Shown here: one piece after another, positions 12,471-28,225 of the stretch
How positions within the stretch are numbered: position 1 is the first letter of the stretch
Layout: each line of letters starts with the position of its first letter
From: Candidatus Flavonifractor intestinigallinarum
GTDB taxonomy: Bacteria > Bacillota > Clostridia > Oscillospirales > Oscillospiraceae
Length of the DNA: 64,000 nucleotides
Reading direction: 5' to 3'
Assembly: GCA_019119165.1 (NCBI GenBank)
Contig: DWXO01000021.1
Location: forward strand, 1 to 64,000
The notes under the pieces: model-generated
Told to the model about the DNA's origin: nothing
What the model saw: only the letters and a program-made list of their open reading frames with translations
The model's database searches: none
Position numbers and translations under genes: made by a program

Positions 12471-12523
12471 TTGGTTGAGCAAAAAAACAATTTGGGCAAA
12501 AAAATTTTTGTGAGGTGATTGGA

Positions 12524-13852
12524 ATGGGTACACCAAAAACAAAGAACTCTGATACCGTATTTCAATGGAACGGTATCCCCCAGCCGGGTCAGCTGATCCC
12601 CCTGGGCCTCCAGCACGTGGTGGCCGCGGTAGTGGGTATCATTACGCCTGCTATTTTGGTTGCCAACACCTGTGGCCTGAGCGAAGCGGAAAAGACCCTG
12701 ATGATTCAGGTCTCCCTGATCCTGACCGCGCTTGCCACCCTGCTCCAGCTCTTCCCCATCTTCCGGCGCATTGGCTCCGGACTGCCCGTCATCATGGGCA
12801 TTAGCTTTGCGTACATCCCCACGCTCCAGGCCATCGGCGCACAGTTTGACATCGCAACGATTCTGGGCGCTGAGATCATCGGCGGTATTGTGGCCATCGT
12901 CTTTGGCGTGTTCGTCAAGTGGATCCGTCCTCTGTTCCCGCCCCTGGTCACCGGCACCGTCATCTTTACCATCGGCCTGTCCCTCTATCCCACCGCCGTC
13001 AAGTACATGGCCGGCGGCGCCGGCACCGAGTGGTTCGGCAATGTGAAGAGCTGGGTCGTGGCCCTCATCACCCTGGTTGTGGTGGTGATCCTGTCCAACT
13101 TCACCAAGGGTATCTTCAAGCTGGGCGCCATCCTCATTGGCATGATCGTGGGCTACATCGTGGCCTACTTCGTGGGCATGGTGGACTTCTCCAGCGTGGG
13201 TACCTCCAGCTGGTTTGCTCTGCCCGAGGTTATGCCCTTTGAGATCAAGTTCGTGCCCTCCGCCTGCGTCTCTCTGGCCATTGTGTATGTGGTCAACGCG
13301 GTGCAGACCATCGGCGACCTGAGCTCCACCACCATGGGCGGCATGGATCGGATGCCCACCGATCGCGAGCTGTCCGGCGGTATCGTTGGCCAGGGCATCA
13401 TGAGCATCGTGGGCGCCTTCTTCGGCGGCCTGCCCACCGCTTCCTACAGCCAGAACGTGGGTATCGTCACTGTGAACAAGGTCATCAACCGGGCCGTCTT
13501 TACCCTGGCTGCCGGTATCCTGCTGGTGGCCGGCCTGATGCCCAAGTTTGCCTCCCTGCTCACCACCATTCCCCAGTGCGTCATCGGCGGCGCCACCATC
13601 TCTGTGTTTGCCACCATCACCATGACCGGCATCCGCATGATCACCGAGGGCGGCTTTACCCCCCGTAAGAGCTCCGTGGTCGGCCTGTCCGTGGCTCTGG
13701 GCGTCGGCATCACTCAGGTGTCCGGCTGCCTGGCCGGCGAAGGCTTCCCCGAGTGGGTCAACACCGTGTTTGGTTCCTCCTCCGTGGTGGTTGCCACCAT
13801 CGTGGCCATCATCCTCAACCTGGTCCTGCCCAAGGAGCAGAACAACAAGTAA
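12524..13852 (+). CDS. NCS2 family nucleobase (uracil/xanthine/urate-type) permease
   Basis: GLQHVVAAVVGIITPAILVA; ADLSSTTMGG-like/QNVGIV motifs of NCS2. Confidence 0.9.
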   Translation: MGTPKTKNSDTVFQWNGIPQPGQLIPLGLQHVVAAVVGIITPAILVANTCGLSEAEKTLMIQVSLILTALATLLQLFPIFRRIGSGLPVIMGISFAYIPTLQAIGAQFDIATILGAEIIGGIVAIVFGVFVKWIRPLFPPLVTGTVIFTIGLSLYPTAVKYMAGGAGTEWFGNVKSWVVALITLVVVVILSNFTKGIFKLGAILIGMIVGYIVAYFVGMVDFSSVGTSSWFALPEVMPFEIKFVPSACVSLAIVYVVNAVQTIGDLSSTTMGGMDRMPTDRELSGGIVGQGIMSIVGAFFGGLPTASYSQNVGIVTVNKVINRAVFTLAAGILLVAGLMPKFASLLTTIPQCVIGGATISVFATITMTGIRMITEGGFTPRKSSVVGLSVALGVGITQVSGCLAGEGFPEWVNTVFGSSSVVVATIVAIILNLVLPKEQNNK

Positions 13853-13904: not shown

Positions 13905-14543
13905 TCATTCCTTGGCTTCGTCGATGTAGCTGTACAGCGTATACTTGGAAATTCCGAAGAACTTGCATACCTTGTCGCCGCTTTTGGTGATGAGGAAGGC
14001 GCCGGTGTCGTTGAGGAACTGCACCGCCTTGACCTTGTCCTCCTTGTTCATCAGGGCCACAGGCTTGCCTACGATCTTCACGCTCTGCTCCATCAGCTCG
14101 TCCAGCAGGTCGGAGACGTTGCGGGAGATGGCCTCGGGTTCCTTCTCGTCCTTCTCCGTGGCAGTGAACTGCTTGATGGCGGTTTCCATAGCCAGCATGA
14201 GGGTGATATCGTAGTTGATCCCGAAGATCCCGATGGGCGTTCCGTCGTCGTCCCGGATGTAGATGGTGGTGGACTTCAGGATCTTGCCGTCCTTGGTGCG
14301 GGTGAGGTAGCTGAGATGATCCTGCAGCTGGTCCTGATTGCCCCGCAGGGCCTCCAGGACCACGTGAGACGGTCCGTCCCCCACCTTTCGTCCCGTGACC
14401 TGCCCGTTTTCAATGGCGACGATGGAGCTCTCCGGGTCGTTGGTGGACAGGTCGTGGACCACCACTTCACAGTTGGGGCCAAACTGGCTGGCAATGCCCT
14501 TGGCCAACTTGAAGAGGAATTGCAGGGTAGATGCTTCTGGCAC
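13905..14543 (-). CDS. YheO/DauR-type PAS-like helix-turn-helix transcriptional regulator
   Basis: FGPNCEVVVHDLS...GIFGINYDIT...GAFLITKSGDKVCKFFGISKYTLYSYI; GTG start with SD gaaaggaggg. Confidence 0.85.
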   Translation of the reverse strand: MPEASTLQFLFKLAKGIASQFGPNCEVVVHDLSTNDPESSIVAIENGQVTGRKVGDGPSHVVLEALRGNQDQLQDHLSYLTRTKDGKILKSTTIYIRDDDGTPIGIFGINYDITLMLAMETAIKQFTATEKDEKEPEAISRNVSDLLDELMEQSVKIVGKPVALMNKEDKVKAVQFLNDTGAFLITKSGDKVCKFFGISKYTLYSYIDEAKE

Positions 14544-14722
14544 GTAGATTCCCTCCTTTCGGAGTCTGCGCCGGACGGCAGACGCCCCCCGGAGGAAGGG
14601 ACGCCAAAGGTTGCCCATTCAGCGGCAGACGGTAAGATATACTTTATCATTTTACCACATTTCAGCTCAGATTCAACTGATTTTGCAGACCTAAAAATTT
14701 TTTTGCTTTTCTAACAAAAGTA

Positions 14723-14751
14723 TTGCATATCCGTGCGAACTGTGGTAACAT
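14723..14751 (+). promoter_or_regulatory. promoter for the ssnA transcription unit
   Basis: TTGCAT-17 nt-TAACAT. Confidence 0.75.
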
Positions 14752-14841
14752 AGAAACAACGAGAGATTGAAACTATGCAAGATGCACAAATTTCCATATA
14801 AAAAGTTGTAGCTGCAACGGAGTGCTTTCGCGCACGGGCTG

Positions 14842-14907
14842 AATGGACATGGAATTCGGCTGGGTTGCGGACGCAACCTAGAAAAGAACGAATTTGTACT
14901 GTCCATT
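14842..14907 (+). promoter_or_regulatory. candidate riboswitch aptamer/antiterminator upstream of ssnA
   Basis: P1 AATGGACA/TGTCCATT (14842-14849/14900-14907), P2 AATTCG/CGAATT (14853-14858/14889-14894), P3 GGTTGC/GCAACC (14863-14868/14873-14878). Confidence 0.7.
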
Positions 14908-14931
14908 CCACCGGGAATGGGCAATTTTTTT
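14900..14931 (+). terminator. intrinsic terminator/attenuator in the ssnA leader, overlapping P1
   Basis: TGTCCATTCC-ACCG-GGAATGGGCA stem followed by A+7T (14925-14931). Confidence 0.85.
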
Positions 14932-14968
14932 ACGGAGAAAAAGAACGAATTTAAAGGAGGAACTTACT

Positions 14969-16309
14969 ATGCTGCTGATCGGTAATGGCAGACTCATCAC
15001 CCGGAGCGAGGAGCTCCCTTATCTGGAAGACGGCGCCGTTGTTCTGGACGGCGAGGTGGTCAAGGAGGTCGGCTCCCTGGCCGACATGAAGGCCAAGTAC
15101 CCCGACGCCGAGTTCGTGGACGCCAAGGGCGGCGTCATCATGCCCGGCCTCATCAACGTCCATACCCACATCTATTCCGGCCTGGCCCGGGGCCTGTCCA
15201 TCAACGGCTTCAATCCCACCAACTTCTTTGAGGTGCTGGACGGCCAGTGGTGGTACATCGACCGTCACCTGACTCTGGACGGCACCCGCGCCTGCGCCTA
15301 CGCCACCATCCTGGACTGCATCCGGGACGGCGTGACCACCATCTTCGATCACCACGCCTCCTTCTGCGAGATCCCCGGTTCCCTCTTTGCCATCAAGGAC
15401 GTGTGCAAGGAGCTGGGTATGCGCGCCAACCTCTGCTACGAGGTGTCCGAGCGTGACGGCCAGGAGAAGTGCGATCAGTCCATCCAGGAGAACGCCGACT
15501 TCGCCAAGTGGGCCAAGGAGCAGGACGACGACATGATCAAGGCCATGTTCGGCGGCCACGCCCTGTTCACCATCTCCGACAAGACCTTTGAGAAGATGGT
15601 CAAGGCCAACGACGGCATGACCGGCTTCCACATCCATGTGGCCGAGGGCATGAACGATGTGTACGACTCCCTGCAGAACTACGGCTGCCGGCCCATCAAC
15701 CGCCTGCTGTACAACGGCATCCTGGGCGAAAAGACCATGCTGGGCCACTGCATCCACGTCTCTCCCGCCGAGATGGACATCATCAAGGAGACCAACACCA
15801 TGGTCTGCCACAACCCCGAGTCCAACATGGGCAACGCTGTGGGCTGCTCCCCCGTGCTGCAGCTGTACAACCGGGGCATCCTCATCGGCCTGGGCACCGA
15901 TGCCTACACCCACGATATGCTGGAGAGCCTGAAGGTCCTGCTGCCCATGCAGCGCCACAACGTCTGTCAGCCCAACGTGGGCTGGTGCGAGGCCACCGGG
16001 ATGCTCTTCCAGAACAACGCCAAGATCTGCTCCCGCTACTTCAAGAAGCCTCTGGGCGTGCTGAAGCCCGGCGCCGCCGCCGACGTGATCGTCATGGACT
16101 ACAAGCCCTTCACCCCCTTCTCCGACGCCAACATCGACGGGCATATGCTCTTCGGCATGATGGGCAAGAACTGCCGCACCACCATCATCAACGGCAAGGT
16201 GCTGTACAAGGACCGCGAGTTCGTGGGCATTGACGAGGACAAGATCAACGCCTGGTGCATGGAGCAGTCCAAGAAACTGTGGGGCGAGCTGAACCACTGC
16301 ACTTACTGA
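14969..16309 (+). CDS. ssnA: putative aminohydrolase SsnA
   Basis: MLLIGNGRLITRSEELPYLEDGAVVLDG; NVHTHIYSGLARG metal site; adjacent to ygfK as in purine clusters. Confidence 0.93.
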   Translation: MLLIGNGRLITRSEELPYLEDGAVVLDGEVVKEVGSLADMKAKYPDAEFVDAKGGVIMPGLINVHTHIYSGLARGLSINGFNPTNFFEVLDGQWWYIDRHLTLDGTRACAYATILDCIRDGVTTIFDHHASFCEIPGSLFAIKDVCKELGMRANLCYEVSERDGQEKCDQSIQENADFAKWAKEQDDDMIKAMFGGHALFTISDKTFEKMVKANDGMTGFHIHVAEGMNDVYDSLQNYGCRPINRLLYNGILGEKTMLGHCIHVSPAEMDIIKETNTMVCHNPESNMGNAVGCSPVLQLYNRGILIGLGTDAYTHDMLESLKVLLPMQRHNVCQPNVGWCEATGMLFQNNAKICSRYFKKPLGVLKPGAAADVIVMDYKPFTPFSDANIDGHMLFGMMGKNCRTTIINGKVLYKDREFVGIDEDKINAWCMEQSKKLWGELNHCTY

Positions 16310-16574: not shown

Positions 16575-19571
<2,997 letters not shown>

Positions 19572-19730: not shown

Positions 19731-20282
19731 ATGGCACCGACCCAAAACAACCGTATCGCCATGGTGTACTGCGCCGGCGGCAGCCGGGCCAAGCGCCGGG
19801 GAGAGGCGGACCTGTCCTACTTGGATTGCAGCATGGCAAAGCAGGCCTTTGCCGACGGGGTGCTGGAGTGCGCCCAGGGGTGCCTGGGCCTGGGCAGCTG
19901 CGTGGAGGCCTGCCGTCTGGACGCCATCCACATTGGAGCCCACGGCGCCGCCGTGGTGGACCGGGAGGCCTGTGTGGGCTGCGGCCTGTGCGTGGAGGCC
20001 TGTCCCCAGGGTCTGATCCGTCTGGTGGACGCGGACACCACCATCGTGCCCCGCTGCTCCAACCAGGACGCTGGCCCCGTGGCCCGGAACGCCTGCGACG
20101 TCAGCTGCATCACCTGCCGGATGTGTGAGCGCAACTGTCCGGCGGCCGCCATCACCATGGTGGACAACCACGCGGTGATTGATCCGGAGCTTTGCATCTC
20201 CTGCGGAATGTGCGCGGTAAAGTGCCCCCGGGGCGTGATCGTGGACGCCGACGGCGTCTTTACCGTGGCCGACTTTGCATAG
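19731..20282 (+). CDS. RnfB-like polyferredoxin (multiple 4Fe-4S)
   Basis: GCLGLGSCVEACRLDAI, CVGCGLCVEACPQGLIRLV, CRMCERNCPAAAI, CISCGMCAVKCPRGVI. Confidence 0.8.
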   Translation: MAPTQNNRIAMVYCAGGSRAKRRGEADLSYLDCSMAKQAFADGVLECAQGCLGLGSCVEACRLDAIHIGAHGAAVVDREACVGCGLCVEACPQGLIRLVDADTTIVPRCSNQDAGPVARNACDVSCITCRMCERNCPAAAITMVDNHAVIDPELCISCGMCAVKCPRGVIVDADGVFTVADFA

Positions 20283-20298
20283 GAAAGAGGAACCACAG

Positions 20299-22869
20299 AT
20301 GAGCTATTCTTTTACCGTAAACGGCGTCCTCCGCACCACCGAGGAGGATAAGCCCCTGCTGCGCTATCTGCGCGACGATCTGCACCTCTATTCCGTCAAG
20401 GACGGGTGCAGCGAAGGCGCCTGCGGCACCTGTACCATCGTGGTGGACGGCAAGGCCGTCAAGTCCTGTGTCCTCACCACCAAGAAGGCGGTGGGCAAGA
20501 CCATCCTTACCGTGGAGGGCCTGTCCCACGACGAGCAGGAGGCCTTTGTGTACGCCTTCGGCAAGGTGGGCGCCGTCCAGTGCGGCTTCTGTATCCCCGG
20601 CATGGTGATGGCGGGCAAGGCTCTCATTGACCGCAATCCCAACCCCTCTGAGGAGGAGATCAAGAAGGCCATCCGGGGCAACATCTGCCGGTGTACCGGC
20701 TACAAGAAGATCATCGAGGGCATTGCCCTCACCGCCGCCATTCTCCGGGGGGAGGAGAAGATTGACCCCGAGCTGGAGAAGGGTGACATCTACGGCGTGG
20801 GCGACCGGGCCTTCCGCACCGACGTGCGGGGCAAGGTGCTGGGCAGCGGCGCTTACTGCGACGACATCGAGATGGAGGGCATGGTCCATGCCTCCGCCGT
20901 CCGTTCCCAGTATCCCAGAGCAAAGGTGCTGGATATTGACGCCTCCAAGGCCCTGGAGCTGCCCGGCGTGCTGGCCGTTCTCACTGCCGAGGACGTGCCC
21001 AACAACAAAGTGGGCCACATCCAGCAGGACTGGGATGTGTTCATCGCCAAGGGCGACATCACCCGCTGCGTGGGCGACGCCATCTGCCTGGTGGTGGCTG
21101 AGAACGAGAAGGTGCTGGCCCAGGCCAAGAAGCTGGTGAAGATCAGCTATGAGCCCCTGGAGCCGGTGCGCTCCATCCAGGAGGCTATGGCCGAGAACAC
21201 CCCCAAGCTCCATCCCAACGGCAACCTGTGCCAGCAACGCCATGTGACCCGGGGCGACGCCAAGACCGCCCTGGCCAACTCCAAGTATGTGGTGACCCAG
21301 AGCTACAAGACTCCCTTCACCGAGCACGCCTTCCTGGAGCCCGAGTGCGCCGTGGCCTTCCCCTATAAGGACGGCGTGAAGGTGTACACCTCCGATCAGG
21401 GCGTGTACGACACCCGGAAGGAGATCTCCATCATGCTGGGCTGGGAGCCCGACCGCATCGTGGTGGAGAACAAGTTCGTGGGCGGCGGCTTCGGCGGCAA
21501 GGAGGACGTGTCCGTGCAGCACCTGGCGGTGCTGGCAGCCCTGAAGGTCCAGAAGCCGGTGAAGGTGAAGTTCACCCGGCAGGAGTCCATCAACTTCCAC
21601 CCCAAGCGCCACTATATGGAGGGTACCTTCACCCTGGGCTGCGACGAGAACGGCATCTTTACCGGCCTGGACTGCGAGATCTACTTCGACACCGGCGCCT
21701 ATGCCTCCCTGTGCGGCCCCGTGCTGGAGCGTGCCTGCACCCACTCCGTGGGCCCCTATTGCTACCAGAACACCGACATCCGGGGCTTCGGCTACTACAC
21801 CAACAATCCTCCCGCCGGCGCCTTCCGTGGCTTCGGCGTGTGCCAGAGCGAGTTCGCCCTGGAGTCCAACATCAACCTGCTGGCTGAGAAGGTGGGTATC
21901 TCCCCCTGGGAGATCCGCTACCGCAACGCCATTGAGCCGGGCAAGGTGCTGCCCAACGGCCAGATCGCCGACTGCTCCACCGCTCTGAAGGAGACCCTGC
22001 TGGCGGTGAAGGACGTGTACGAGGCCAACATGGACCACGCGGGCATCGCCTGCGCCATGAAGAACGCCGGCGTGGGCGTGGGCCTGCCGGACAAGGGCCG
22101 CTGCAAGCTGGTGGTGCGGGACGGCATGGTGGAGCTGTACGCCGCCGCCTCCGACATCGGCCAGGGCTGCGCCACCGTCTTCCTCCAGGTTCTGGCTCAG
22201 ACCACCGGGCTGCCCCGGCTGCTGCTGCGGAACATGGGCGCCAACTCCGAAGTGGCCCCCGACTCGGGCACCACCTCCGGCTCCCGTCAGACCCTCATCA
22301 CCGGCGAGGCCGTGCGTATGGCCGCCGTGGATCTGAAGAAGGATATGGACGAGGTGAACGGCGACCTCAGCAAGCTGGAGGGCAAGGAATATTTTGCCGA
22401 GTTCTTTGACCCCACCGACAAGCTGGGCTCCGACAAGCCCAACCCCAAGAGCCATGTGGCCTACGGCTTTGCCACCCATGTGGTTATCCTGGACGACGAG
22501 GGCCAGGTCAAGGAGGTCTACGCGGCCCACGACTCCGGCAAGGTGGTCAACCCCACCTCCATCCAGGGTCAGATCGAGGGCGGCGTGCTCATGGGTCTGG
22601 GCTACGCCCTCACCGAGGACTTCCCCCTGAAGGACTGCGTGCCCCAGGCCAAGTACGGCACCCTGGGCCTGATGCGGTCCAACCAGATCCCCGATATCCA
22701 CGCCATCTATGTGGAGAAGGACGAGCTGCTGCCCTTCGCCTACGGCGCCAAGGGCATCGGTGAGATCGCCACCATCCCCACCGCGCCGGCCGTCCAGGGC
22801 GCCTATTACGCCAAGGATCACATCCTGCGCACCAGCCTGCCCATGGAGAACACCTACTACAAAAAGTAA
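20299..22869 (+). CDS. xdhD: molybdenum hydroxylase with fused 2Fe-2S domain (XdhD / selenium-dependent xanthine dehydrogenase type)
   Basis: CSEGACGTCTIVVDG and CGFC...CRCTGY Fe-S motifs; Moco domain GGGFGGKEDV, GAFRGFGVCQ; no FAD domain. Confidence 0.88.
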   Translation: MSYSFTVNGVLRTTEEDKPLLRYLRDDLHLYSVKDGCSEGACGTCTIVVDGKAVKSCVLTTKKAVGKTILTVEGLSHDEQEAFVYAFGKVGAVQCGFCIPGMVMAGKALIDRNPNPSEEEIKKAIRGNICRCTGYKKIIEGIALTAAILRGEEKIDPELEKGDIYGVGDRAFRTDVRGKVLGSGAYCDDIEMEGMVHASAVRSQYPRAKVLDIDASKALELPGVLAVLTAEDVPNNKVGHIQQDWDVFIAKGDITRCVGDAICLVVAENEKVLAQAKKLVKISYEPLEPVRSIQEAMAENTPKLHPNGNLCQQRHVTRGDAKTALANSKYVVTQSYKTPFTEHAFLEPECAVAFPYKDGVKVYTSDQGVYDTRKEISIMLGWEPDRIVVENKFVGGGFGGKEDVSVQHLAVLAALKVQKPVKVKFTRQESINFHPKRHYMEGTFTLGCDENGIFTGLDCEIYFDTGAYASLCGPVLERACTHSVGPYCYQNTDIRGFGYYTNNPPAGAFRGFGVCQSEFALESNINLLAEKVGISPWEIRYRNAIEPGKVLPNGQIADCSTALKETLLAVKDVYEANMDHAGIACAMKNAGVGVGLPDKGRCKLVVRDGMVELYAAASDIGQGCATVFLQVLAQTTGLPRLLLRNMGANSEVAPDSGTTSGSRQTLITGEAVRMAAVDLKKDMDEVNGDLSKLEGKEYFAEFFDPTDKLGSDKPNPKSHVAYGFATHVVILDDEGQVKEVYAAHDSGKVVNPTSIQGQIEGGVLMGLGYALTEDFPLKDCVPQAKYGTLGLMRSNQIPDIHAIYVEKDELLPFAYGAKGIGEIATIPTAPAVQGAYYAKDHILRTSLPMENTYYKK

Positions 22870-23168: not shown

Positions 23169-24404
23169 ATGAAAGACCAGCTCAAATGGGTCCTCAACAA
23201 AATGCCGAAGAGCGACGACAAGCAGCTGGACGTGATGTCCCTGTCCAACGTGGCCAAGGCCCGCTTCTTCCACAGCTCCTTCCCCCAGTACTCCATCACC
23301 CCCCTGGCTCAGCTGGAGGGCATGGCCAAGTACCTGGGCCTGGGCGGCGTGTATGTGAAGGACGAGTCCTACCGCTTCGGCCTCAACGCCTTTAAGGTGC
23401 TGGGCGGCTCCTTCGCCATGGCCAAGTACATTGCCAAGGAGATGGGCCGGGACGTTTCCGAGATGACCTACGACTACCTGACCAGCGAGGCCTTCCGCAA
23501 GGAGTTCGGTCAGGCCACCTTCTTCACCGCCACCGACGGCAACCACGGCCGCGGCGTGGCCTGGGCTGCCAACAAGCTGGGCCAGAAGGCTGTGGTACAT
23601 ATGCCCAAGGGCAGCGCCAAGTCCCGCTTTGACAACATCGCCAAGGAGGGCGCCAAGGTCACCATCGAGGAGGTCAACTACGACGACTGCGTGCGTATGG
23701 CCGCCGCCGAGGCCGAGCAGACCGAGCACGGCGTCATCGTGCAGGACACCGCCTGGGACGGCTACGAGGAGATCCCCTCCTGGATCATGCAGGGCTACGG
23801 CACCATGGCCAACGAGGCCGCCGATCAGCTCCGTCAGTGCGGCGTGAACCGCCCCACCCACGTGTTCGTGCAGGCGGGCGTTGGCTCTCTGGCCGGCGCT
23901 GTGGTGGGTTACTTCACCAACCTGTTCCCCAATGATCCCCCCAAGTTCGTGGTAATGGAAGCCCGCGCTGCCGACTGCCTCTACCAGGGCGCTCTGGCCG
24001 CCGACGGCAAGCCCCGCATCGTGACCGGCGACCTCCAGACCATCATGGCCGGTCTGGCCTGCGGCGAGCCCAACACCATCTCCTGGGATATCCTGCGCAA
24101 CCATGTGTCCGCTTTCATCTCCTGCCCCGACTGGGTCAGCGCCAAGGGTATGCGGATGCTGGGCGTGCCCGTGAAGGGCGATCCCACCGTGATCTCCGGC
24201 GAGTCCGGCGCCGTGGGCATGGGCTGCCTGGACGCCATTATGTGCGACGACACCTACAAGGAGCTGCGTGACGCTCTGGAGCTCAACCGCTTCAGCCAGG
24301 TGCTCATGTTCTCCACCGAGGGCAACACCGATCCCCTGAAGTTCCGCCGGGTGATCTGGGACGGCGAGTATCCCACCACCGAGACCCCCCAGAAGCCCTA
24401 CTAA
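23169..24404 (+). CDS. ygeX: diaminopropionate ammonia-lyase family protein
   Basis: PLP motif FGLNAFKVLGGSFA; TDGNHGRGVAWAA. Confidence 0.94.
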   Translation: MKDQLKWVLNKMPKSDDKQLDVMSLSNVAKARFFHSSFPQYSITPLAQLEGMAKYLGLGGVYVKDESYRFGLNAFKVLGGSFAMAKYIAKEMGRDVSEMTYDYLTSEAFRKEFGQATFFTATDGNHGRGVAWAANKLGQKAVVHMPKGSAKSRFDNIAKEGAKVTIEEVNYDDCVRMAAAEAEQTEHGVIVQDTAWDGYEEIPSWIMQGYGTMANEAADQLRQCGVNRPTHVFVQAGVGSLAGAVVGYFTNLFPNDPPKFVVMEARAADCLYQGALAADGKPRIVTGDLQTIMAGLACGEPNTISWDILRNHVSAFISCPDWVSAKGMRMLGVPVKGDPTVISGESGAVGMGCLDAIMCDDTYKELRDALELNRFSQVLMFSTEGNTDPLKFRRVIWDGEYPTTETPQKPY

Positions 24405-24469
24405 GTTCGTGCCGACCGGGATTATTCCCGATGAAACCGTGAAATAAATTGAAAATGGAGGTCATTACC

Positions 24470-25861
24470 ATGGATTTTGAGAAGATCAAAGCTGCTGCCG
24501 AAGGTTATAAGGCCGACATGACCCGCTTCCTGCGGGACATGATCCGCATCCCCAGCGAGAGCTGCGAGGAGAAGGGCGTTTGCGAGTGCATCAAGGCCGA
24601 GATGGAGAAGCTGGGCTTTGACAAGGCCGAGTTCGACGGCCTGGGCAACGTGATCGGCTGGATGGGCGAGGGCGACAAGATCATCGCCATCGACTCCCAC
24701 ATCGACACCGTGGGCATCGGCAACATCAACAACTGGACCCACGACCCCTACGAGGGCTATGAGGACGACGAGGTCATCTACGGCCGCGGCGGTTCCGACC
24801 AGGAGGGCGGCATGGCTTCCGCCGTGTACGGCGCCAAGATCATGAAGGATCTGGGCCTGATCCCCGCCGGCTACAAGATCATGGTGGTGGGCTCCGTTCA
24901 GGAAGAGGACTGCGACGGTATGTGCTGGCAGTACATCGTCAACAAGTTCTTCCCCGCCAACGGCATCAAGAAGGAGCAGGTTGAGTTCGTTATCTCCACC
25001 GAGCCCACCGACGGCGGCATCTACCGCGGTCACCGCGGCCGTATGGAGATCCGCGTGGACGTGAAGGGCGTGTCCTGCCACGGCTCCGCTCCCGAGCGCG
25101 GCGACAACGCCATCTACAAGATGGCCGACATTCTCCAGGACGTGCGCGCCCTCAACGAGAACGACGACGCCGACTCCACCGAGATCAAGGGCCTCGTGAA
25201 GATGCTCAACCCCAAGTACAACCCCGACCACTACGAGGACGCCCGCTTCCTGGGCCGCGGCACCTGCACCACCTCCCAGATCTTCTACACCTCTCCCAGC
25301 CGCTGCGCTGTGGCTGACTCCTGCTCCATCTCCATCGACCGCCGCATGACCGCCGGCGAGACCTGGGATTCCTGCCTGGAGGAGATCCGCAACCTGCCCA
25401 GCGTGAAGAAGTACGGCGACGACGTGAAGGTCTCCATGTATATGTACGACCGTCCCTCCTGGACCGGCGAGGTGTACGAGACCGAGGCTTACTTCCCCAC
25501 CTGGATCAACAAGGAGAACGCCGCTCACGTTCAGGCTCTGGCCGACGCCCACCACGCCCTGTTCGGCGAGGAGCGCATCGGGCCCGACGGCGCCATGCAC
25601 CTGCGTCACCGTCCTCTGATCGACAAGTGGACCTTCTCCACCAACGGCGTTGCCATCCAGGGCCGCTACGGCATCCCCTGCGTGGGCTTCGGCCCCGGCG
25701 CCGAGTCTCAGGCTCACGCCCCCAACGAGATCACCTGGAAGCAGGATCTGGTCTCCTGCGCCGCCCTGTACGCCGCCGTGCCCGGCCTGTACAAGGAGGA
25801 GAACAAGACCGCTGACGTGACCCAGTTCCGCGCCGGCAAGACCAACAACAACATCCAGTAA
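24470..25861 (+). CDS. ygeY: YgeY-type M20 peptidase/deacetylase
   Basis: M20 motifs [22 protein letters not shown]; cluster context. Confidence 0.92.
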
Positions 25862-25957
25862 TTTCGTCCCATAAGGGGCGGCGCAAGCCGCCCCTGCGGA
25901 TATGAAACCCGTATCCATCCACCAACCGACTAAATATTGAAAAGGAGATCGATTGCA

Positions 25958-27157
25958 ATGGACAAGACTCTGCAGATGTATATTGACAAGCTGAATTCCC
26001 TGAACTTCAAGGAGATGTACGAGGGCGACTTCTTCCTGACCTGGGACAAGAGCGACGACGAGATCGAGGCCGTTTTCACCGTGGCCGACGCTCTGCGCTA
26101 TATGCGTGAGAACAACATCTCCACCAAGATCTTCGAGTCCGGCCTGGGCATCTCCCTGTTCCGCGACAACTCCACCCGCACCCGTTTCTCCTTCGCTTCC
26201 GCTTGTAACCTGCTGGGCCTGGAGGTTCAGGACCTGGACGAGGGCAAGAGCCAGATCGCTCACGGCGAGACCGTCCGCGAGACCGCTAACATGATCTCCT
26301 TCATGGCCGACGTCATCGGCATCCGCGACGATATGTACATCGGCAAGGGCCACACCTATCAGAAGGAAGTGGTCGAGGCCGTGACCCAGGGCCACAAGGA
26401 CGGCGTTCTGGAGCAGAAGCCCACCCTGGTCAACCTGCAGTGCGACATCGACCACCCCACCCAGGCTATGGCCGATATGCTGCACATCATCCATCACTTC
26501 GGCGGCGTTGAGAACCTGAAGGGCAAGAAGATCGCCATGACCTGGGCTTACAGCCCCTCCTACGGCAAGCCCCTCTCCGTGCCCCAGGGCATCATCGGCC
26601 TGATGAGCCGCTTCGGCATGGACGTCGTCCTGGCTCACCCCGAGGGATACGAGGTTATGCCCGAGGTCGAGGAGGTCGCCAAGAAGAACGCCGAGAAGTC
26701 CGGCGGCACCTTCACCAAGACCAACAGCATGGCTGAGGCCTTCAAGGATGCCGACATCGTGTATCCCAAGAGCTGGGCTCCCTTCGCCGCCATGGAGAAG
26801 CGCACCAACCTGTACGCCGAGGGCGACACCGACGGCATCAAGGCTCTGGAGAAGGAGCTGCTGGCTCAGAACGCCAACCACAAGGATTGGTGCTGCACCG
26901 AGGAGCTGATGAAGACCACCAAGGACGGCAAGGCTCTGTATATGCACTGCCTGCCCGCCGACATCAACGACGTGTCCTGCAAGGACGGCGAGGTCGAGGC
27001 TTCCGTGTTCGATCGCTATCGTGATCCTCTGTACAAGGAGGCTTCCTACAAGCCCTACATCATTGCCGCTATGATCTTCCTGGCTAAGGTTAAGGATCCC
27101 CAGGCCACTCTGAAGGCCCTGGAGGAGCGCGGCATCGCCCGTTGGTTCCAGAAGTAA
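25958..27157 (+). CDS. ygeW: YgeW-type carbamoyltransferase
   Basis: SLFRDNSTRTRFSFASAC carbamoyl-phosphate site; HCLPAD. Confidence 0.92.
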   Translation: MDKTLQMYIDKLNSLNFKEMYEGDFFLTWDKSDDEIEAVFTVADALRYMRENNISTKIFESGLGISLFRDNSTRTRFSFASACNLLGLEVQDLDEGKSQIAHGETVRETANMISFMADVIGIRDDMYIGKGHTYQKEVVEAVTQGHKDGVLEQKPTLVNLQCDIDHPTQAMADMLHIIHHFGGVENLKGKKIAMTWAYSPSYGKPLSVPQGIIGLMSRFGMDVVLAHPEGYEVMPEVEEVAKKNAEKSGGTFTKTNSMAEAFKDADIVYPKSWAPFAAMEKRTNLYAEGDTDGIKALEKELLAQNANHKDWCCTEELMKTTKDGKALYMHCLPADINDVSCKDGEVEASVFDRYRDPLYKEASYKPYIIAAMIFLAKVKDPQATLKALEERGIARWFQK

Positions 27158-27283
27158 GATTCTGATCCATATCTGACTTCCATTTTTCCTTCCCCTTCCT
27201 TTTAGAGGCCCGTCCGCATAGGTCAACCTGCCTGTATCTGTGCGGACGGGCCCCACTATTTTACGAATATTGAGGTGTTTATC

Positions 27284-28225
27284 ATGGGCAAGCGTATCGT
27301 GATCGCCCTGGGCGGCAATGCTCTGGGCAACAATCTTCCTGAGCAGATGATCGCCGTGAAGCAGACCGCCAAGGCCATCGTGGACCTGATCCAGGAGGGC
27401 CATGAGGTCATCATCGCCCACGGCAACGGTCCCCAGGTGGGCATGATCCAGAAGGCCATGACCGAGCTGACCCGTTCCGATCCCGAGAAGTACATTCCCT
27501 GCCCCCTGTCTGTGTGCGTGGCCATGAGCCAGGGCTACATCGGCTACGATCTGCAGAACGCTCTGCGTGAGGAGCTGCTGGACCGGGGCATCAACAAGGG
27601 CGTGGCCACCGTGCTGACCCAGGTGGAAGTGGACCCCGAGGACAAGGCTTTCCAGAATCCCACCAAGCCCATCGGCGCCTTCATGACCAAGGAAGAGGCC
27701 GACAAGATGGTGGCCGAGCGCGGCTACAACGTCATCGAGGACGCCGGCCGCGGCTATCGCCGTGTGGTGGCTTCCCCCAAGCCCCAGTCCATCATCGAGA
27801 TCCAGTCCATCCGTGACATGGTGGCCGCCGGCCTGGTGGTCGTGGCCTGCGGCGGCGGCGGTATCCCCGTCTACAAGACCGAGGGGCATCACCTGAAGGG
27901 CGCCGCTGCCGTCATCGACAAGGACTTTGCCTCCTGCGTGCTGGCCCAGCAGGTGGAGGCCGACACCCTCATCATCCTCACCGCCGTGGAGAAGGTGGCC
28001 ATCAACTTCGGCAAGCCCGACGAGAAGTGGCTGGACTCCCTCACTCCCGACGAAGCCCGCAAGTACATCGCCGAGGGCCACTTCGCTCCCGGCTCCATGC
28101 TGCCCAAGGTGCAGGCCGCTGTGGAGTTCGCTGAGAGCGCTCCCGGCCGCTCCGCTCTCATCACCCTGCTGGAGAAGGCCAAGGACGGCGTCGCCGGCCG
28201 CACCGGTACCGCCATCCATCAGTAA
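27284..28225 (+). CDS. arcC: carbamate kinase
   Basis: RIVIALGGNALG; VACGGGGIPV; AHGNGPQVGMI. Confidence 0.95.
   Translation: MGKRIVIALGGNALGNNLPEQMIAVKQTAKAIVDLIQEGHEVIIAHGNGPQVGMIQKAMTELTRSDPEKYIPCPLSVCVAMSQGYIGYDLQNALREELLDRGINKGVATVLTQVEVDPEDKAFQNPTKPIGAFMTKEEADKMVAERGYNVIEDAGRGYRRVVASPKPQSIIEIQSIRDMVAAGLVVVACGGGGIPVYKTEGHHLKGAAAVIDKDFASCVLAQQVEADTLIILTAVEKVAINFGKPDEKWLDSLTPDEARKYIAEGHFAPGSMLPKVQAAVEFAESAPGRSALITLLEKAKDGVAGRTGTAIHQ

Follow-up and report, generated by a model that had tools for sequence, protein, structure and literature searches.

An ssnA RNA core abutting a terminator-antiterminator platform in the leader of a reductive urate-degradation operon of Candidatus Flavonifractor intestinigallinarum

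The operon and its promoter

The window, i.e., the whole 64-kb stretch of DNA analysed here, contains a plus-strand gene set running from ssnA to arcC that constitutes the reductive urate pathway. This pathway (ssnA, ygfK and their neighbours) was worked out recently, with YgfK and SsnA jointly opening yanthine (PMC12507026). The genes of the operon and those beside it are the following.

12515-13852, plus strand: purine permease (Xan_ur_permease), beside the operon
13908-14618, minus strand: YheO-like PAS_6/HTH_22 regulator, divergent, beside the operon
14723-14751, plus strand: sigma-70-like promoter TTGCAT-17-TAACAT (TTGCAT 14723-14728, TAACAT 14746-14751), read from sequence
14953-14960, plus strand: ribosome-binding site of ssnA, AAAGGAGG, read from sequence
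14969-16309, plus strand: ssnA amidohydrolase (NF005540, 649.7 bits; TIGR03314, 565.1 bits; both above cutoff)
16575-19571, plus strand: ygfK flavoenzyme, start codon approximate (TIGR03315, 1413.8 bits)
19731-20282, plus strand: 4Fe-4S ferredoxin-like protein (Fer4 domains)
20299-22869, plus strand: selenium-dependent xanthine dehydrogenase-type molybdoenzyme (TIGR03311, 1260.5 bits)
23169-24404, plus strand: ygeX diaminopropionate ammonia-lyase (TIGR03528, 628 bits)
24449-28225, plus strand: ygeY, ygeW and carbamate kinase arcC (NF009555, TIGR03316, TIGR00746, all above cutoff)

Among 10 related leaders, the TTGCA of the promoter is invariant and the -10 region largely conserved; the hexamers score below threshold in a consensus scan. 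The sole short ORF of the leader, ATG...TAA at 14775-14801 (MQDAQISI), sits just 5' of the RNA core described below and is not conserved in the genus. Leader-peptide attenuation was rejected, this ORF being missing from the relatives L054, L055 and L138.

The ssnA RNA core and its distribution

The preliminary description of this leader, made from the sequence alone, had recognised no known RNA class. The Rfam cmscan places it in one: ssnA RNA (RF03031) matches at 14802-14850 with 53.6 bits against a cutoff of 37.3 (E 7e-14, model positions 1-48), the sole Rfam match within the 64-kb window and the single RF03031 copy in the genome. The score, the P1 and P2 helices, the loop bases and the site 5' of ssnA (118 nt between the match and the ssnA start) all agree with the family. 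The leader is a member of an already known orphan class, and the class is not new. RF03031 is a cis-regulatory family whose motif was reportedly first described by Weinberg et al. in 2017, and its Rfam model is limited to the 48-nt core. What lies outside that model, namely the antiterminator/terminator platform and the ON logic proposed here, is drawn from our own comparison of leaders.

14802-14850, plus strand: ssnA RNA, entire Rfam RF03031 match (cmscan)
14809-14813, plus strand: core P1 5' strand UAGCU, partner 14837-14841 (95% of cells paired, n=137 distinct sequences)
14814-14821, plus strand: internal loop GCAACGGA (family form GNAACGNA), facing the single G14836 (conservation)
14822-14835, plus strand: core P2 GUGC/GCAC, capped by a UUUCGC loop (pairing at 100% over 137 sequences)
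14837-14841, plus strand: core P1 3' strand GGCUG, directly abutting rod P1 (in relatives it contributes to the terminator)

The core is a 33-nt hairpin (14809-14841) made up of P1 UAGCU/GGCUG, the internal loop and P2 GUGC/GCAC, and it lies immediately 5' of the rod-like hairpin that the preliminary description had taken for the sensor; the RF03031 match overlaps the rod in the first rod strand only. No other part of the leader is as conserved as the match, 14802-14850, and 26 of the 33 core bases are invariant in ten close relatives (Flavonifractor-type leaders). An alignment of 137 distinct cores has 15 invariant columns, mostly in the internal loop and P2, with G16, A18, A19, G21 and A23 (alignment numbering) in the loop identical in 137/137 sequences. 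The loop of the window, GCAACGGA / G, fits the conserved RF03031 bases GNAACGNA / G and is the presumed ligand pocket. In the two helices 97.2% of cells are paired (21-56% in slid controls), with 16 double-side changes vs 4.0 in shuffles (0/500); three P1 pairs carry changes on both sides, and the loop-closing pair of P2 has undergone nine CG-to-UA double changes.

Matches to RF03031 were found in 78 of 301 genomes of the same family; two of them (G187 and G222) proved on inspection to be without the core, leaving 76 genomes. The gene ssnA is present in 94 genomes of the family, of which 76 carry the RNA, and no genome without ssnA carries it. Among 391 genomes of the class, there was no match above the cutoff in other families, and all nine matches of an order-level scan (295 genomes) fell inside the same family. 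The matches listed in a pattern scan of named genomes include those from Oscillospiraceae, among them Flavonifractor, Oscillibacter, Intestinimonas, Pseudoflavonifractor and Dysosmobacter, as well as entries labelled Gemmiger, Fournierella, Subdoligranulum and Anaerotruncus. The weak matches L032-L036 from other families, together with L082 and L084, are missing the full core and were judged to be chance. Upstream of ssnA in G197, the leader L206 contains a possible divergent core, AUGACCGAAACUAAGUGUUGCGCGUACGGGUCAU (11.4 bits, E 0.15), in whose candidate P1 different bases would form Watson-Crick pairs throughout; it is not claimed as a member. In the loci L203, L204 and L205 (G030, G173 and G056), with SsnA 86-89% identical, ssnA RNA is absent, and the sequence upstream still resembles the gene of the divergent YheO-like regulator.

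Of 161 distinct leaders, 153 have ssnA downstream, and four of the other eight are cut by contig ends. The remaining four (L075, L100, L162 and L183) precede an NfnA-like oxidoreductase, a hydantoinase-like amidohydrolase and, twice, a YczE-like membrane protein, the names of these genes and of their neighbours being read from sequence by eye. Several of the exceptions, judged in the same way, adjoin ssnA, a purine permease or a YgeW-like gene. Such a location, within or beside purine-degradation loci, suggests a purine-catabolic signal.

Two known groups of riboswitches share this gene context. The guanine/adenine (purine) riboswitch and its xanthine, guanine and 2'-dG variants (PMC9295807) are three-way junctions, whereas the core here is two-helix and rod-like. 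Like the present core, xanthine-I (NMT1) is a hairpin with a conserved internal loop, found next to purine-oxidation genes; it binds xanthine and uric acid. NMT1 RNAs switch genes OFF, probably at the level of translation (PMC7373994), in contrast to the intrinsic terminator at the end of the present leader. Neither these two classes nor any Rfam class other than ssnA RNA matched in 14400-15200, even when filters were permissive and the threshold was relaxed to E<=5.

The rod, the terminator and the platforms of relatives

The promoter, the helices of the rod, the terminator and the ATTTTTTT tract all lie where the preliminary description had placed them. The conserved, covarying, sensor-like hairpin at 14809-14841 abuts a covarying antiterminator rod at 14842-14907, which is followed by the terminator.

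14842-14849, plus strand: antiterminator 5' strand AAUGGACA, rod P1 (95% of cells paired in 10 relatives)
14853-14894, plus strand: rod P2 and P3, variable antiterminator arm (covariation; loops unconserved)
14900-14907, plus strand: antiterminator 3' strand UGUCCAUU, common to the terminator 5' strand (sequence, relatives)
14900-14931, plus strand: intrinsic terminator UGUCCAUUCC-ACCG-GGAAUGGGCA with U-run (fold, scan)

The terminator hairpin (14900-14923, followed by ATTTTTTT at 14924-14931) has a folding energy of -15.5 kcal/mol (z -4.5 vs shuffles) and is the sole terminator-like site in 14600-15000. The rod, with P2 at 14853-14858/14889-14894 and P3 at 14863-14868/14873-14878, folds with -30.4 kcal/mol vs -16.2 in shuffles (z -4.8), and the best fold adds a ninth pair, G14841-C14908, to rod P1. 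Strand 14900-14907 is used by both rod P1 and the terminator, so that the two are mutually exclusive, and both are conserved in relatives; the earlier view of the leader as a transcription attenuator with a shared strand holds. The covariation looked for in P1-P3 is also present: 10 of 20 pairs are changed on both sides (4/6 in P2 and 6/6 in P3), with 0/500 shuffles as good.

What did not hold is the placement of the sensor. The rod itself being the aptamer of an unknown riboswitch class would fit its stability and covariation, yet not even the closest relatives conserve its loops: the purine-rich loop UAGAAAAGAA has 0/10 invariant bases and a mean identity of 0.51 in ten relatives, and P3 has 0/16 in the ten Flavonifractor-type leaders. 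Moreover, most relatives are without such a rod, and the conserved element, overlooked in the preliminary description, is upstream at 14809-14841. That reading is therefore very improbable. The rod covaries as an expression platform, in which P1 is the antiterminator competing with the terminator at 14900-14923; variable sequence with covarying structure is how an antiterminator arm should look.

An intrinsic terminator is present in 155 of 160 leaders of sufficient length (from the 161 distinct leaders collected), and three platform types follow the one core (A, n=22; B, n=29; C, n=89), with 20 leaders outside these types. In type A, the 5' strand of the terminator is the core's own GCAC-G-GGCUG strand; the 22 leaders were selected for this core/terminator overlap, which goes beyond 95% of dinucleotide shuffles in 9 of them. 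Type B, the type of the window, has a rod-like antiterminator starting flush after the core. In type C, the post-core CUAUCAC can pair either 5' (UGAUAG) or 3' (GAGUG). The largest group of relatives has another platform after the same core, on CUAUCACUC...GAGUG, without such a rod. Antiterminators pair better with their own terminator arm than with swapped arms in type B (-11.5 vs -8.3 kcal/mol, 0/300; 28 leaders) and in type C (-11.8 vs -9.5 kcal/mol, 0/300), where the 5' alternative pairing is also better than the swaps (0/300); control windows had no preference for the own arm. These results are supportive rather than decisive, as swapping ignores relatedness.

Two other arrangements were observed. 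In L094 and L130 (Gemmiger sp. An87 and An194), two tandem ssnA cores lie about 170 nt apart 5' of ssnA, an arrangement resembling tandem riboswitches. In L119 (uncultured Subdoligranulum), the core ends 28 nt 5' of the ssnA start with no terminator between, and there the RNA may act on translation.

The core might instead be bound by a protein or another RNA, in a protein-dependent antitermination. The core is a small hairpin whose internal loop is short and conserved, which would suit such a partner, and the gene of the YheO-like PAS_6/HTH_22 regulator is divergent at 13908-14618. The regulator has a DNA-binding HTH domain, however, and the matching upstream sequence remains in the RNA-less relatives L203-L205, while tandem cores and three platforms on one core are typical of riboswitch aptamers. 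Recognition of the core by something other than a metabolite is thus unlikely.

Proposed switch, polarity and ligand

Most probably, the ssnA RNA of this leader works as a transcriptional ON switch through which a metabolite controls the reductive urate-degradation operon, a reading to which we give a probability of about 0.68. The architecture of a riboswitch that had been proposed for this leader was half right, the attenuator with its antiterminator being correct and the sensor misplaced. The proposed mechanism resembles that of transcriptional ON riboswitches with an antiterminator, in which the same strands can be claimed by the sensor, the antiterminator or the terminator; the likeness is one of mechanism and implies no membership.

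In the leader of the window, the core and the rod could be linked by one further predicted pairing.

14837-14861, plus strand: possible anti-antiterminator hairpin GGCUGAAU/AUUCGGCU, 14837-14844/14854-14861 (predicted fold)

This hairpin (-8.8 kcal/mol, z -2.6 for 14836-14868) excludes core P1, the AAU of rod P1 and rod P2. Among relatives, 86% of its cells are paired with no covariation, and the pairing is weakly enriched (combined z about -2.8, from sequences that are not independent). It is kept as a hypothesis, and the link between core and rod is the weak step of the proposed mechanism. In the best fold of a partial transcript (14795-14870), the core CUGCAAC pairs with GUUGCGG of rod P3 around the GGCUGAAU/AUUCGGCU hairpin; this pairing (14812-14818, 14837-14868) is a possible larger ligand-free fold and is not conserved in all relatives.

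According to the proposed scheme, in the absence of the ligand the 3' strand of the core, GGCUGAAU, would be taken by AUUCGGCU, which would disrupt core P1 and rod P2 as well as the margin of rod P1 and let the terminator form. With the ligand present, the core would hold GGCUG, and the rod would form flush against it, possibly coaxially stacked. With both core and rod formed, RNA polymerase would read into ssnA.

The ON polarity can be inferred most clearly from the type A leaders. Since their terminator is built from the core 3' strand, core and terminator exclude each other, and a stabilised core should permit read-through. This polarity is predicted to show most cleanly in short leaders, for example L074, L049 and L057. 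The opposite polarity, with the ligand-bound core favouring the terminator (OFF), e.g., by stacking or by freeing the terminator arm, draws on the energies and on some relatives. Equilibrium folding with the core and/or the terminator enforced gave no polarity signal, with about zero change in most leaders: the forced core alters the terminator cost by a median of -0.04 (group B) and +0.07 kcal/mol (group C), and by -0.67 kcal/mol in the window leader, the wrong sign for ON. The full-length minimum-energy fold already includes the antiterminator rod. In six leaders (L060, L073, L127, L141, L162 and L183), the terminator is flush at the core edge without an antiterminator, and the polarity there may be either. 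Two points speak against OFF: in 22 leaders the core 3' strand itself supplies the terminator, so that a stabilised core must block termination, and catabolic operons are usually induced by their substrate. An OFF switch is therefore rather unlikely, if slightly less so than a protein-bound core, and ON, the polarity favoured already in the preliminary description, is the better supported. Given the neutral equilibrium energies, an ON switch of the proposed kind would have to operate kinetically or through ligand energy and stacking. The terminator costs just about 0.8 kcal/mol relative to the free ensemble in the window leader, which is thus bistable.

In the literature that could be searched, no ligand of ssnA RNA and no riboswitch named ssnA was found. 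As for the ligand, our best guess is a purine from the reductive urate pathway, i.e., urate, xanthine or the intermediate yanthine. More broadly, and tentatively, with the chances somewhat below even, ssnA RNA might be an aptamer class unrelated in structure to the known purine riboswitches, which senses urate, xanthine or yanthine and switches on the whole gut-bacterial urate-degradation operon via several interchangeable platforms, in tandem in Gemmiger.

The reductive urate pathway is discussed in connection with gut urate removal and gout. If ssnA RNA is a metabolite switch, finding its ligand would solve an orphan riboswitch, provide a ready sensor for that compound and reveal the signal that turns on urate degradation in Oscillospiraceae.
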